Of a stretch of DNA of 37,907 bases, positions 11,005 to 32,496 are shown piece by piece. The stretch lies in the IMG/VR virus record IMGVR_UViG_3300031977_002414, positions 1-37,907 of that record; one strand, given 5' to 3'. This DNA is from a virus. The position numbers and the translations under genes were made by a program. The notes below the pieces were generated by a model. It was given only the letters and a program-made list of their open reading frames with translations. It did no database searches and was not told the origin of the DNA. Numbering within the stretch: position 1 is the stretch's first letter; the number at the start of each line of letters is the position of its first letter.

Positions 11005-13602
11005 CTACACTATGTATGAGTTATAACCAATATCTTCAGTAATAGGCTCATCATCCCAGATTGAGGAACCATAATTCTGACTTTCTGTATGTTCGTAGGA
11101 ATTACTCTCACCTGAAGGTTCCCAGACTTTAAGCAGGGATAACTGGCTAATCAAGTCGATACCATCATCGTGTTTGGATTTAATACCGCTATTGGTTACC
11201 AAATACAGCTCGTTAAGTAATTCCTGAATGAAAGGAGTCTCTTTAGCTTCCAGTGGTAAATGAATCTTCCCTGCTTTAAACCAAGGAGTTACAGTATTGA
11301 ATCGGGTAAACTTATCGGCTACTGCACGTAATCCTGGCTGATTGTTATTTCCCTGAGAAGCCAAGGTAAACCAAATATTTTTAACCATCATTTCTCGTTG
11401 AATCCAATCAATGAAGCCGCCTTGTTGCCCATTAACCTCAACCCCAACTAATTGAGGATTGTATTGTTGGGCATAGCGGAATAATCGATCAATATTGGTA
11501 TCCATCCTGACACGTTCTAAGTAACCATCTACCAAGAACCAATCCCGGTTAGAGTTGTAAGCCCAGACAGCTACACCAGAGTAGTCTCCAGATTGTCGGG
11601 TACTAGTAGCAAAGTCAGTGGTAATGTACCAGTTGAAGTAGGTAGGATTAGCTAAGAAGGCTTTACGGGAATACCACTTAACATCTTCATCAAGAATAAC
11701 CCGATCATCCTGAGATACGATTCTCAGCATCATTTCCTGGTTAAAGTCTTGGATTCTCCCCCGTTTAAGAGCGTCTTCATATTTCTTCTTCACATACTCG
11801 TAAGGGAAACGATCTGGCCAAGAGCCTCTGAATTCTGATTTCTTACACGGGAATTGTTCACACACTGGGAACACGTTAACCGACCAAGTACCAGATTCCA
11901 CTGCCTTGTATAGAGGGTCATTCTGATTAAACGGAGTACCCGACCAGATCATCATGTTAGCAGTAGGGTGTAGAGCGTGTTCTACTGCCTTGTAGATGGT
12001 ATCTTCAATACTGGCAGTAACAGTAGGCGACTTAGCGTCATCATCGCTGATTAAGTCATCCATAAGTGCTAATTGAGGACGTTTACCCATCTCTTTAGCA
12101 CCACGAACACCGGTTTTTGCGCCGTAGCCCTTCATAACAAGACGTTTACCGTCTATGTTACGGAACTCCCAACGAATATCTGTGAACTTAACAACTGGCA
12201 CATACCGTTGCAGAAATTCACTATTCTCCCAACGATACTCAAGGTTCTTACGCATGTTCTTAACACCATTCTCAATGGAGTCAGATACATACAAACCAAG
12301 ATCAACCTTACCCACGATAGGCATTTCGCCATACACTGCCAGGTATAGGATTAGGTACTCACCTAGCAAAGTGGTGTTGTGAGTTGTGAAAAAGTCATTT
12401 GCTAAGAATGAGTGAGTAGCATCAGCTACTGCAATGCACTGCGAAGGTTCTTGTTCGATAGGAGTAATATCGGCAATTCCTACATGCCCTATTTTGTTTG
12501 GTTTCCACGAAGCTGCCTTACGAGGTAAGCGGAACGGACACATATCTAATCTAACGTATACCCGTTGAGCTTTACCTGTTTTACCTACAGTTGCTTCTCC
12601 TCCAAGACTTCGAACTAACCACACGACATCATTAATAAGTCCTGGGGACATAGAGCAGAAGCTGGCATACCCTCTAGGGCATGTACCATCTGTATCCATT
12701 AATCCTTGAAGAACTGCTAAACGCTGCTCGATACTTCCCCATAAGAGTTCTTGGGGTACTCGCTTGCCGTAAGTATTTGCAGTTCCGATATAGCTTTTAA
12801 CTGTCTTACCTAACCCGTTTAAGGAGAATCTAACAGTATCAGGGTTACGTTTATCATGACGTACAGTATGAGCTTGTGCATTTTGAACTGTGGCTAGGAA
12901 ATGGGATAAATCATCAACATGTGTATGAATTCTCGTGAATCCAGTATCTTGAGCGATATTCCCATCCCCTAGAATTACCCCAATAGTGTAGGGGTCGATA
13001 GGTACATCTACAGGAGGGAGTTGAACTGCCTGCGGTGTTGGAATGAACCATTTAACTTCTTTACCCGAAGGACACCGTTCATTAACTTTTCGGGAGTAAC
13101 TTACCCCACGTTTAATAATTTCTTGAGTGGTAAGTACGTACTCATTAAATCCAGGCAGTGAGCGCTTACCTGTTCGACGCTTTTTCACAAAATTTAGGTG
13201 ATCTTCCGAAACCTTTAATTTACGTCCATCAACTAATTGAATTTCGTACATAGGTTTATGGAAGATTTCGCTTTTATGCGTTACCTGCGTGACTTCACCG
13301 TTACGTGTAAACACAGCATCCCCTACCTGTAACTCTGCCATTGAGACATTGCCTCTAGGGGTAGGTATCTGTGTATCCAGGCTTAATGCCTTAGCTACCC
13401 CGCGATGGCACATGTTGGCTATACGATTACTGTTAAGTATCGTATCTAACATGTAATAGTGGACTATAGGCGTCTTATTCTCTTCACCTTCATCACCATT
13501 AACCAGTTTAATGAAGTTAACAAAAGCTAAGGCAAAGTCAGAAGGGACATAATCTTCTGGTATTTCATAGTCAACTGAGTTGAGAAAGTCTTCAACTTTC
13601 AT
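11005..13602 (-). CDS. terminase large subunit with in-frame intein, N4 gp68-like
   Basis: This 865-residue precursor is an ATP-driven DNA packaging motor and headful nuclease. Removing intein residues 72-409 leaves 527 residues, the normal terminase size, and joins HRGVAK to TTLLGEY to restore a Walker A motif. Walker B is LALMDDLI (511-518). The nuclease domain shows TTDFATSTR (Asp663) and a late HDDGIDLI acidic motif. The ATP site is therefore broken until splicing occurs. The ATG overlaps the gp69-like gene by 11 nt. The family call is very secure. Confidence 0.95.
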   Translation of the reverse strand: MKVEDFLNSVDYEIPEDYVPSDFALAFVNFIKLVNGDEGEENKTPIVHYYMLDTILNSNRIANMCHRGVAKALSLDTQIPTPRGNVSMAELQVGDAVFTRNGEVTQVTHKSEIFHKPMYEIQLVDGRKLKVSEDHLNFVKKRRTGKRSLPGFNEYVLTTQEIIKRGVSYSRKVNERCPSGKEVKWFIPTPQAVQLPPVDVPIDPYTIGVILGDGNIAQDTGFTRIHTHVDDLSHFLATVQNAQAHTVRHDKRNPDTVRFSLNGLGKTVKSYIGTANTYGKRVPQELLWGSIEQRLAVLQGLMDTDGTCPRGYASFCSMSPGLINDVVWLVRSLGGEATVGKTGKAQRVYVRLDMCPFRLPRKAASWKPNKIGHVGIADITPIEQEPSQCIAVADATHSFLANDFFTTHNTTLLGEYLILYLAVYGEMPIVGKVDLGLYVSDSIENGVKNMRKNLEYRWENSEFLQRYVPVVKFTDIRWEFRNIDGKRLVMKGYGAKTGVRGAKEMGKRPQLALMDDLISDDDAKSPTVTASIEDTIYKAVEHALHPTANMMIWSGTPFNQNDPLYKAVESGTWSVNVFPVCEQFPCKKSEFRGSWPDRFPYEYVKKKYEDALKRGRIQDFNQEMMLRIVSQDDRVILDEDVKWYSRKAFLANPTYFNWYITTDFATSTRQSGDYSGVAVWAYNSNRDWFLVDGYLERVRMDTNIDRLFRYAQQYNPQLVGVEVNGQQGGFIDWIQREMMVKNIWFTLASQGNNNQPGLRAVADKFTRFNTVTPWFKAGKIHLPLEAKETPFIQELLNELYLVTNSGIKSKHDDGIDLISQLSLLKVWEPSGESNSYEHTESQNYGSSIWDDEPITEDIGYNSYIV
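12376..13389 (-). other. intein with LAGLIDADG homing endonuclease in terminase Walker A
   Basis: The intein is 338 residues (precursor 72-409). The N-terminal splicing block starts ALSLDTQIPTPRGN. Block B is VSEDHLNF (131-138). The endonuclease core has two LAGLIDADG helices, YTIGVILGDG (205-214) and VLQGLMDTDG (297-306). Block F contains Cys389 in SQCIAVADATHSFL, and the end is TTHN followed by extein Thr410. Residue 1 is Ala, so the usual N-terminal Cys/Ser attack is impossible. A block F Cys plus block G Thr407 matches class 3 inteins, except that the expected block B Trp is Asn137. The class call is inference. Confidence 0.93.
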
Positions 13603-19831: not shown

Positions 19832-20338
19832 ATGAGCCAATGTATGAATTGTGGTGGGATGATGGAAGGTGACGGGTATACGTCAGTTCTTCATTGTGAA
19901 TATGTTGAAGAATTCGAGTATGAATATCTGGAACCAGATGCTCCTCCAGTTTATTGTGACTACCCAGAACTTAAACCATATAAAGTAATTGTTGCTGGGG
20001 GGCGTGACTTCAATGACTACGCTTTGGCAGAGAAAGTCTTGCACCAAGCAGTGGATCGGCTCCAAGCCAATGGTTACGAAATGGTCATCGTATCTGGTAT
20101 GGCTCGGGGTGCGGATAGAATTGGGCGGGAATACGGGCATCATTTCCATGTTCAAGTGGATGAGTTCCCTGCTGATTGGGATACTCACGGTAAGCGTGCT
20201 GGGTATTTACGTAATGAACAGATGGCTAACCATGCTGACGGATTAATAGCCTTCTGGGATGGTAAAAGCCGTGGAACCATGCACATGATCGAGACTATGA
20301 AGAAATTGGGTAAACCAATAAGAATAGTTGAATACTAA
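19832..20338 (+). CDS. SLOG-domain protein (DUF2493/YspA-like)
   Basis: This is a 168-residue protein. Residues 1-45 form a Cys-containing, acidic N-terminus (CMNCGG, later HCEY) that may bind zinc. From about residue 50 the DUF2493 Rossmann-like SLOG core is clear: VIVAGGRDFNDY, VIVSGMARGADRIGREYG, FPADWDTHGKRAGYLRNEQM and IAFWDGKSRGT. SLOG domains bind nucleotide-derived ligands and occur in many defence or counter-defence settings; the phage role here is unknown. TAGGAGG precedes the ATG. It is a single-gene unit between a hairpin promoter and a terminator. Confidence 0.88.
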   Translation: MSQCMNCGGMMEGDGYTSVLHCEYVEEFEYEYLEPDAPPVYCDYPELKPYKVIVAGGRDFNDYALAEKVLHQAVDRLQANGYEMVIVSGMARGADRIGREYGHHFHVQVDEFPADWDTHGKRAGYLRNEQMANHADGLIAFWDGKSRGTMHMIETMKKLGKPIRIVEY

Positions 20339-29321: not shown

Positions 29322-30335
29322 ATGGAAACGTGCATATTCGAGGTAAAACCTTACTTACAGCAAGTCCTGAAAGCAGGATTATTGCCATTCCTCCATGGAT
29401 CGCCCGGAATTGGAAAATCAAGTCTACTGGCAGAGATTGCTTCTGAGTTTAACTTGGAAGTAATTGACCTACGTTTAAGCCAGTGCGAGCCTACTGACCT
29501 CATGGGATTTCCTTGTCTGGAAGGTACTAAGGCTACGTACAAGCCTATGGACTTCTTCCCTGTAGAGGGTGATCCACTACCAGAAGGTAAAAATGGGTGG
29601 CTACTTGCACTGGATGAAATGAATGGTGCAGATGAGTCCGTCCAGAAGGCTGCATACAAGCTTGTGCTGGACAAGATGGTAGGTAACCATAAGCTACATA
29701 AAAATATAGCCATAGTAGCAGCGGGTAACTTAGCCACTGACAGAGCCATGGTAGAAGATATGTCTACGGCACTGCAAAGTAGAATGGTACATTTCCCTGT
29801 TACCGTTAAGCCGCAGAACTGGCTTAAATGGGCCGCAAGTAGAGTAGACTACCGTATAGCAGGTTTCATTGGCTTCCGTCCTGAGAAGCTTAACGGTGAT
29901 GTAGAACACGAAGACTTTACTTTTCCTTGTTGCCGTACTTGGACTTTCCTCAGTTCTTTAATAAAAGATGTTGAAGACATTGAGTTCATAACCAAGATGG
30001 CTACAGCGACTATTGGTGAAGGTACCGCTAGAGAGTTTGTTTCTTTCTTAAGTGTGTATGCATCCTTACCAAGCTGGAATGACATCATAACTAACAGTAA
30101 TTCTCTACAGGTACCTACTGAGTTAAGTACATGCTTTGCTTTGGCTTCTCTAATAGCCCATAGAGTTGATGATAGGACGATTACCCCAGTAGTTACTTTC
30201 ATCAAACGTATGGATATTGAGGTACAGATAGTTACCTTGAAGCTAATACTAGGTAAAAACCATGGCTTACAGACCCATCAAGCAATAACTGGTTGGGTTA
30301 AAGAGAATGCCAATCTCCTTGAAGCCATAAGTTAA
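29322..30335 (+). CDS. MoxR-like AAA+ ATPase (N4 gp24-like)
   Basis: This is a 337-residue protein. Walker A is GSPGIGKS (26-33), Walker B is LLALDEMN (94-101, Asp98/Glu99), and sensor 1 is the Asn of AAGN (136). MoxR-type ATPases usually work with a VWA-domain partner to remodel a protein or insert a metal; here the VWA gene lies 1 kb downstream, as in N4 (gp24/gp25). The substrate in infection is not known. The start is the ATG at 29322 with CGGAG upstream. Confidence 0.88.
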   Translation: METCIFEVKPYLQQVLKAGLLPFLHGSPGIGKSSLLAEIASEFNLEVIDLRLSQCEPTDLMGFPCLEGTKATYKPMDFFPVEGDPLPEGKNGWLLALDEMNGADESVQKAAYKLVLDKMVGNHKLHKNIAIVAAGNLATDRAMVEDMSTALQSRMVHFPVTVKPQNWLKWAASRVDYRIAGFIGFRPEKLNGDVEHEDFTFPCCRTWTFLSSLIKDVEDIEFITKMATATIGEGTAREFVSFLSVYASLPSWNDIITNSNSLQVPTELSTCFALASLIAHRVDDRTITPVVTFIKRMDIEVQIVTLKLILGKNHGLQTHQAITGWVKENANLLEAIS

Positions 30336-31314: not shown

Positions 31315-32496
31315 ATGGATGCTTATGAGGCAAGACTGAAAAAGATAAGACTACTGCTAATGAGTAAGCCCAATACAGTATTCTTTGTTTCACTGGCTTA
31401 CAAATTAAAATTTGAAGTCTCTACAAGAGTAGCTACTGCAGCCACTAACGGCACTACTATCATCTTTAATCCAGATTTTATGGATAGCTTGACTGATGAT
31501 GAGCTGCTGTTTCTCATGCTCCATGAGATTATGCACGTAGTATTAATGCACCTTACTCGGTTAGGGGATCGTGAGCATCGACTCTGGAACTGTGCAGGCG
31601 ATTACGTTATTAACCTTAGCCTTGTGGATCAGGGCTTTAAAATGCCTGAGATGGGCTTACTGGATAGACAGTACAGAGGTATGTCTACCGAAGAAGTCTA
31701 CGAGAAGCTACAGGAAGACTCACCAGACGAAGAATGTCCAATGCCTGACCTTATGGACCCTTCCGGGTCTAATGGGGATTCTGAACCAGGAGAAGGATCA
31801 TCAGGTAGCGGCTCTGGTGCAGGTGGTAATCTTGAAGAAATTAAACAACAGATTTCTAACATAGTAGCTGAAGCGACTTCTTTAGCCAGAATGAGTGGTG
31901 AGGAGCCAGGGAAACTATGCCCTGATATGGCCCGAACCATAAAGGAAATATTTTCAACCCAAGTAGATTGGCGTAAGAAACTGCAGAAATCTATTTCAGG
32001 CAAGATTAAACGTAAATCTGATTGGTTACGGCCTAATAAGCGATACTTACCGCACTACTTACCTAGAACCAGAAAGCTTGGTGTAGGTAGTGTCACTGTG
32101 CTTATAGATGTCTCTGGGTCAATTACCCATGAAGCTATGTCCACGTATATGGGGGAAGTCTTCCACATGCTAAGAGTAGCTAAACCAAGAAAGGTAGAGA
32201 TGTTCTTCTTTGCTTGGGGCGTTACTGATAGCCACGTAATTAAGTCCAGCAATGACATCAAAGCGGTATTACATAAAGAGATTAACTCTAACTATGGTAC
32301 CAGCTTACATAAGGCGCTTCAGGACTTAGAAGACCATTCTACTGACTTAATGCTAATTCTTAGTGACGGTTACTTCGATGCCCCAGATATCGGGTTATTT
32401 AATAAAAATACTAGGTATATTGCCTGTTTTACCACTGACTACTGGGAAGATCGGAAGATGCCTTGGGAGCATATCCGTATTGAACTACAAATATAG
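31315..32496 (+). CDS. metallopeptidase-like/VWA-domain protein (N4 gp25-like, DUF2201 type)
   Basis: This is a 393-residue protein. The N-terminal part has HEIMH (His70, Glu71, His74), the zinc-peptidase HExxH. A Ser/Gly/Glu-rich linker spans about 145-172. The C-terminal VWA domain begins VLIDVSGSI with MIDAS residues Asp265, Ser267 and Ser269. This is the partner type of MoxR ATPases, and the pair matches N4 gp24/gp25. Whether the peptidase site is active is not known. GGGGAAACC precedes the ATG. Confidence 0.9.
   Translation: MDAYEARLKKIRLLLMSKPNTVFFVSLAYKLKFEVSTRVATAATNGTTIIFNPDFMDSLTDDELLFLMLHEIMHVVLMHLTRLGDREHRLWNCAGDYVINLSLVDQGFKMPEMGLLDRQYRGMSTEEVYEKLQEDSPDEECPMPDLMDPSGSNGDSEPGEGSSGSGSGAGGNLEEIKQQISNIVAEATSLARMSGEEPGKLCPDMARTIKEIFSTQVDWRKKLQKSISGKIKRKSDWLRPNKRYLPHYLPRTRKLGVGSVTVLIDVSGSITHEAMSTYMGEVFHMLRVAKPRKVEMFFFAWGVTDSHVIKSSNDIKAVLHKEINSNYGTSLHKALQDLEDHSTDLMLILSDGYFDAPDIGLFNKNTRYIACFTTDYWEDRKMPWEHIRIELQI

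Follow-up and report, generated by a model that had tools for sequence, protein, structure and literature searches.

Terminase gene and intein of the window

The window, which is the whole record of 37,907 bases, carries a gene whose product matches the phrog_38 terminase profile (E=1e-100) and Pfam Terminase_6C. The gene is interrupted by an intein at GVAK|TT, inside the P-loop (Walker A) of the large terminase (TerL). The intein begins with ALSLDTQIPTPRG and ends with FFTTHN (Table 1). Residues N137, C389, T407, H408, and N409 of the precursor correspond to intein residues 66, 318, 336, 337, and 338. Asn66, Cys318, and Thr336 constitute an NCT triplet in place of WCT. The cysteines besides Cys318 (residues 106, 237, 245, and 284) lie within the linker/endonuclease part. 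The neighboring genes encode a portal, a major head protein, a tape measure, a DNA polymerase, and an N4-type two-subunit RNA polymerase; the portal, head, tape-measure, and polymerase genes group the contig with N4-like phages.

Table 1. Positions of the terminase gene, its intein, and key residues in the window
Feature	Position	Strand	Remark
Large terminase (TerL) precursor	11005..13602	-	865-aa ORF; 527 aa once spliced
N-extein	13390..13602	-	71 aa, ending ...CHRGVAK, the first half of Walker A
Intein	12376..13389	-	338 aa, Ala1 to Asn338; precursor residues 72-409
C-extein	11005..12375	-	456 aa + stop; Thr-Thr-Leu first
Ala1, non-nucleophilic intein residue 1	13387..13389	-	Ala in 25/26 NCT inteins
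His64, block B position 10	13198..13200	-	His in 176/177 sequences
Asn66, block B position 12	13192..13194	-	Trp in class 3 inteins
Cys318, block F position 4	12436..12438	-	Expected first nucleophile; Cys in 177/177 sequences
Thr336-His337-Asn338, block G	12376..12384	-	Intein C-terminal end
Thr+1	12373..12375	-	Expected second branch-point nucleophile; Walker A Thr after splicing
LAGLIDADG motif 1, PYTIGVILGDGN	12958..12993	-	Intein ~133-144; Asp142 retained
LAGLIDADG motif 2, LQGLMDTDG	12685..12711	-	Intein 227-235; Asp234 retained
Second terminase insertion site, MKGYGAK|TGVRGAK	12094..12135	-	Unoccupied here; NCT inteins there in other phages

The original prediction described a class 3-like intein in the TerL Walker A loop of an N4-like phage, and its coordinates and residues are exact. 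As it held, a class 1 start is absent (Ala1, with Thr at +1), the block F Cys and block G Thr are present (C389 is Cys318 and T407 is Thr336), and the block B Trp is replaced by Asn137, here Asn66. Both LAGLIDADG motifs, called intact, retain the catalytic Asp. The neighboring genes bear out the N4-like affiliation, and the anticipated spliced product of 527 residues matches the computed length.

Two other genes of the window are of note. The gene at 31315-32496, located downstream of an AAA ATPase gene at 29322-30335, bears the PHROGs family label HNH endonuclease. Its Pfam matches are DUF2201 metallopeptidase-like and VWA-like (E=5e-36), and the HNH label looks wrong. A small protein encoded at 19832-20338 contains a YspA/cpYpsA-related SLOG domain (E=3e-17).

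Predicted fold and class

Hint, LAGLIDADG_3, and Hom_end pieces are matched in the intein by Pfam/NCBIfam models with scores below the curated cut-offs. The top matches of an alignment-profile search of the PDB are 6rix and 6bs8, both class 3 inteins, with E ~1e-14. An AlphaFold (AF2) model, computed from an alignment of the window intein and loci with the phage-collection rows left out, has a pLDDT of 95.4 and a pTM of 0.92. The splicing domain of the model superimposes on class 3 Msm DnaBi1 (6bs8) at 1.4 Å over 123 residues (Z 21.8), and the full model on PI-SceI over 316 residues (Z 28.0). The endonuclease part has structural matches in PI-SceI and I-DmoI. The predicted fold combines a full HINT domain with a LAGLIDADG endonuclease, as expected for an undegraded intein. 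The profile, AlphaFold, and structural matches rule out an insert that is degenerate or arose by chance.

The HINT fold, blocks A, B, F, and G, and the placement of the element in frame within a conserved host protein identify it as an intein. Among the class 3 features, residue 1 is not Cys, Ser, or Thr, Cys318 occupies F:4, Thr336 occupies G:5, and Thr is at +1. The intein is also nested among WCT inteins in a tree of class 3-like relatives that contains no class 1 set. The Trp at block B position 12 is missing. With all tested class 3 features but the Trp, the window intein most likely works like class 3. The endonuclease has two LAGLIDADG helices in a matching fold, and Asp142 and Asp234 are found in all 26 NCT inteins.

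A clade of NCT inteins

Inteins at the identical TerL position, which the original prediction proposed to search for in other terminases, are present in Vibrio phages JA-1, VCO139, JSF3, 12VC501, 1.238.A, 1.245.O, and the D series (57-62% identity). Also among the closest relatives is an intein on the IMG/VR contig L023 (66% identity). Across 219 inteins including that of the window, the triplet is WCT in 183, NCT in 26, WCS in seven, FCT in two, and FCV in one; the set was drawn from phage, viral, and genome collections, is similarity-ranked, and includes near-copies, and the counts are not population frequencies. The 26 NCT inteins form one clade, with an SH-aLRT of 99 in one tree and 100/97 in another, so the W-to-N change occurred once within the sample. 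Asn66 is the defining trait of this clade. The hosts are terminase genes in every case but one decayed free-standing copy, and a second profile scan for NCT members outside terminase brought 42 further relatives, none of them NCT.

Asn66 is uniform over the 26 inteins down to ~37% identity; as the sequences read, the residue has been kept as a stable alternative to Trp and does not reflect decay of a single copy. Several other positions distinguish the clade. Position 60 is Val in NCT inteins and Cys or Ala in most WCT inteins. Residue 327 is polar (Q/S/E/T) in 26 of 26 and mostly Leu or Ala in WCT inteins. NCT inteins also have L58 and S316 in common, and most of them are missing the aromatic residue at 14. 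The linked changes at 14, 58, 60, and 327 read as a putative rebuilding of the Trp pocket around Asn66; all co-changes lie on one branch and are not repeated covariation.

Some members of the set are unusual. The decayed copy, L105 2465-3556 from Succinivibrionaceae bacterium WG-1, is a free-standing ORF with Ser1 and a THS end; no terminase sequence surrounds the intein within the ORF, and runs of N occur nearby on the contig. In L021 (1764-2573), a site-2 intein (see below) is shortened by ~70 residues between the LAGLIDADG motifs and retains its splicing residues. The endonuclease loss in L021 and the decay in L105 are expected as a late stage of the homing cycle. L103 and L104 are NCT P-loop TerL inteins from a single Lachnospiraceae MAG, where each lies on its own 73-kb contig. 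The contigs are near the genome size of N4-like phages and could be phage contigs binned with the MAG. A 'DarB-like antirestriction' label is attached to intein-bearing terminases and other intein-bearing genes (OZ195695, NC_054727, NC_070950, PP582180, NC_048709, and others). The label appears to follow the intein, and these genes are probably misannotated.

Two insertion sites and mobility

NCT inteins occupy two sites in TerL. P-loop (AK|TT) carriers are the window, L001-L005, L023-L025, L103, and L104. Site 2 (GAK|TGxRG), just ahead of a Walker B-like motif and 87 residues downstream of the P-loop site in spliced TerL, is occupied in L009-L015, L021, L026-L030, and L106. The P-loop is unoccupied in the site-2 carriers checked, as is site 2 in the window. 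A PDB search for solved terminases, aimed at relating site 2 to a known arginine finger, gave no convincing sequence match.

WCT relatives, some of them inserted at P-loop-like sites, served to root the NCT tree. In this tree the P-loop inteins diverge first, and the site-2 group is monophyletic (97/94) and nested within the P-loop inteins, with the P-loop intein L025 as sister. The basal P-loop inteins and the monophyletic site-2 group indicate a single move from the P-loop to site 2. The DNA core common to both sites is GGnGCnAAr|ACn; the residue preceding Ala varies among the P-loop copies.

The window intein shares 60-66% identity with those of close carriers, more than the exteins do (51-59%). 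The best matches to the window extein come from phages lacking the intein (60-62%) and from L025 (61%), yet the L025 intein is only 44% identical to that of the window. The P-loop is empty in 79 of the 80 nearest TerL proteins. This patchy distribution and the discordance between intein and extein indicate that the NCT lineage is mobile.

Probable splicing of the interrupted terminase

JA-1, VCO139, JSF3, 12VC501, 1.238.A, and 1.245.O are cultured lytic phages that form particles. A tblastn search found TerL at one place per record in each, with no second copy that could stand in for an unspliced one. The NCT triplet was read directly in JA-1, 12VC501, D456, 1.238.A, and 1.245.O. Since these phages are viable with a lone TerL interrupted in Walker A, NCT inteins are likely to splice in nature. 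The literature search found no splicing or cleavage assays of the NCT clade. The large terminase is usually absent from virions. Looking for the 527-residue protein in virion production, as the original prediction proposed, is for that reason a weak refutation of splicing if virions themselves are meant.

The sequence, fold, clade, two sites, and extein discordance are computed results; the splicing steps, DNA cleavage, and pocket contacts that follow are inferred. Cys318, aided by His64 and Thr336, would attack the Lys71-Ala1 bond, and the acyl group would move to Thr+1. Cyclization of Asn338, aided by His337, would follow, and ligation of the exteins would yield GVAKTT and with it an intact Walker A loop. 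In place of the structural Trp, Asn66 would be seated in a remodeled pocket. The endonuclease would spread the intein to P-loop alleles that lack it, at a target holding about GGnGCnAAr|ACn, and one ancestral copy would have moved to the look-alike GAK|TG site of the same gene. Taken as a whole, the window element is very probably a mobile class 3 LAGLIDADG intein that splices by the Cys318 route with a core rebuilt around Asn66 and whose lineage moved once to site 2.

Three class 3 inteins lost splicing when the Trp at position 12 of block B was changed to Ala (PMC5222942), which makes Asn in the Trp pocket unexpected and weighs against mere tolerance of the change. The AceL NrdHF intein, with a non-Trp triplet (MCT), is proven to be class 3, and substitution by Trp abolished its activity (PMC7891396). 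Asn66 might be more than a packing change that the fold tolerates: a polar, hydrogen-bonded replacement in the Trp pocket, formed together with residue 327 and block B and altering the positioning or activation of Cys318. We regard this specific proposal as tentative and on balance unlikely. If it were true, the NCT clade would stand apart within class 3 as a subclass with its own mode of function, and restoring the Trp would abolish splicing.

The original prediction went on to suggest that splicing could act as a timer or sensor for packaging, which would make it conditional. The Walker A location does make motor activity dependent on splicing, and Msm DnaBi1, the characterized redox switch of class 3, is under redox control, with Cys48 pairing with the catalytic Cys (PMC6195587). 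However, the position of Cys48 is Met47 in the window and Met in 25 and Leu in one of the 26 NCT inteins, and the other cysteines of the window intein are confined to the linker/endonuclease part. N4-like phages can do without the intein, as the empty P-loops attest, and the intein behaves like a mobile element. A regulatory role is therefore quite improbable, and this part of the prediction is unsupported, whereas the class 3-like Walker A intein stands. Oxidation of Cys318 itself may occur, but no sign of control over packaging was seen. A constitutively splicing homing element fits the observed pattern.

Loss of the Trp could alternatively be decay, leaving a splicing-dead or cleavage-only intein and a dead terminase in this phage. 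The Trp-to-Ala results and the decayed L105 would agree with such a loss, but the uniformity of Asn66, the retention of all other catalytic residues, and the reliance of cultured isolates on a TerL interrupted by NCT inteins argue against it. The dN/dS between the JA-1 and 12VC501 inteins is also low (0.09); a value of 0.58 for L004/L005, from six changes, was set aside. The chance that the intein is dead appears very small. Class 2-type splicing, in which Thr+1 would act on the N-terminal junction without any need for Cys318, would likewise show an Ala1 start and no Trp, but is scarcely probable given the invariance of Cys318, the nesting of the clade among WCT inteins, the Ser/Thr at +1 typical for class 3 where Cys+1 dominates elsewhere (PMC5222942), and the previous restriction of class 2 inteins to KlbA genes (PMC3196547).

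Comparison with known inteins

The preferred reading, a mobile class 3 intein, can be set against several known systems. The JA-1/VCO139 TerL inteins share the gene, P-loop site, and LAGLIDADG endonuclease with the window intein and are 62% identical to it, with NCT read in JA-1. In the accessible portion of the 2013 report they appear as 'an intein', free of class analysis (PMC3670811; KC438282), and the JA-1 record is already annotated 'intein-containing'. Our search of the open-licence literature found neither an NCT clade nor insertion at the second site in terminase described.

Msm DnaBi1 (6bs8) and Mch DnaB1 (6rix) resemble the window intein in Ala1, the block F Cys, the THN end, and the HINT fold (1.4-1.9 Å), but have Trp67 and Ser+1 and lack an endonuclease. 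Msm DnaBi1 additionally contains the Cys48-Cys118 redox pair. AceL NrdHF (6zgq; PMC7891396) is likewise a class 3 intein lacking the Trp, and it is active. Unlike the window intein, it is a split mini-intein with Met for Asn and without the block F and G His, and its structural Z is only 16.1.

Mycobacteriophage TerL inteins are inserted in the ATPase domain, as in the window, and one of their sites is the P-loop Lys|Thr (PMC5050341). Those tested splice, and two cleave intein-less alleles. In contrast to the window, WCT is conserved in their class 3 members, and they reside in other terminase families.

A survey of 1701 class 3 inteins put the share that departs from Trp at position 12 of block B at 6.1% (PMC7891396), under a 2020 working definition (absence of an N-terminal Cys and Cys at F:4) that does not require the Trp. 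NCT may be among the deviations counted there.

The Trp of WCT serves as a class 3 signature, and it mattered wherever its loss was tested, with AceL NrdHF (natural Met) as the known exception. A phage clade with Asn at this position suggests that the core of a class 3 intein can repack to accommodate a polar side chain, and offers a natural series to probe the role of the residue. The apparent one-time transfer from one site to another within the same gene, with a DNA core common to both, would be a compact case of a change in endonuclease target.
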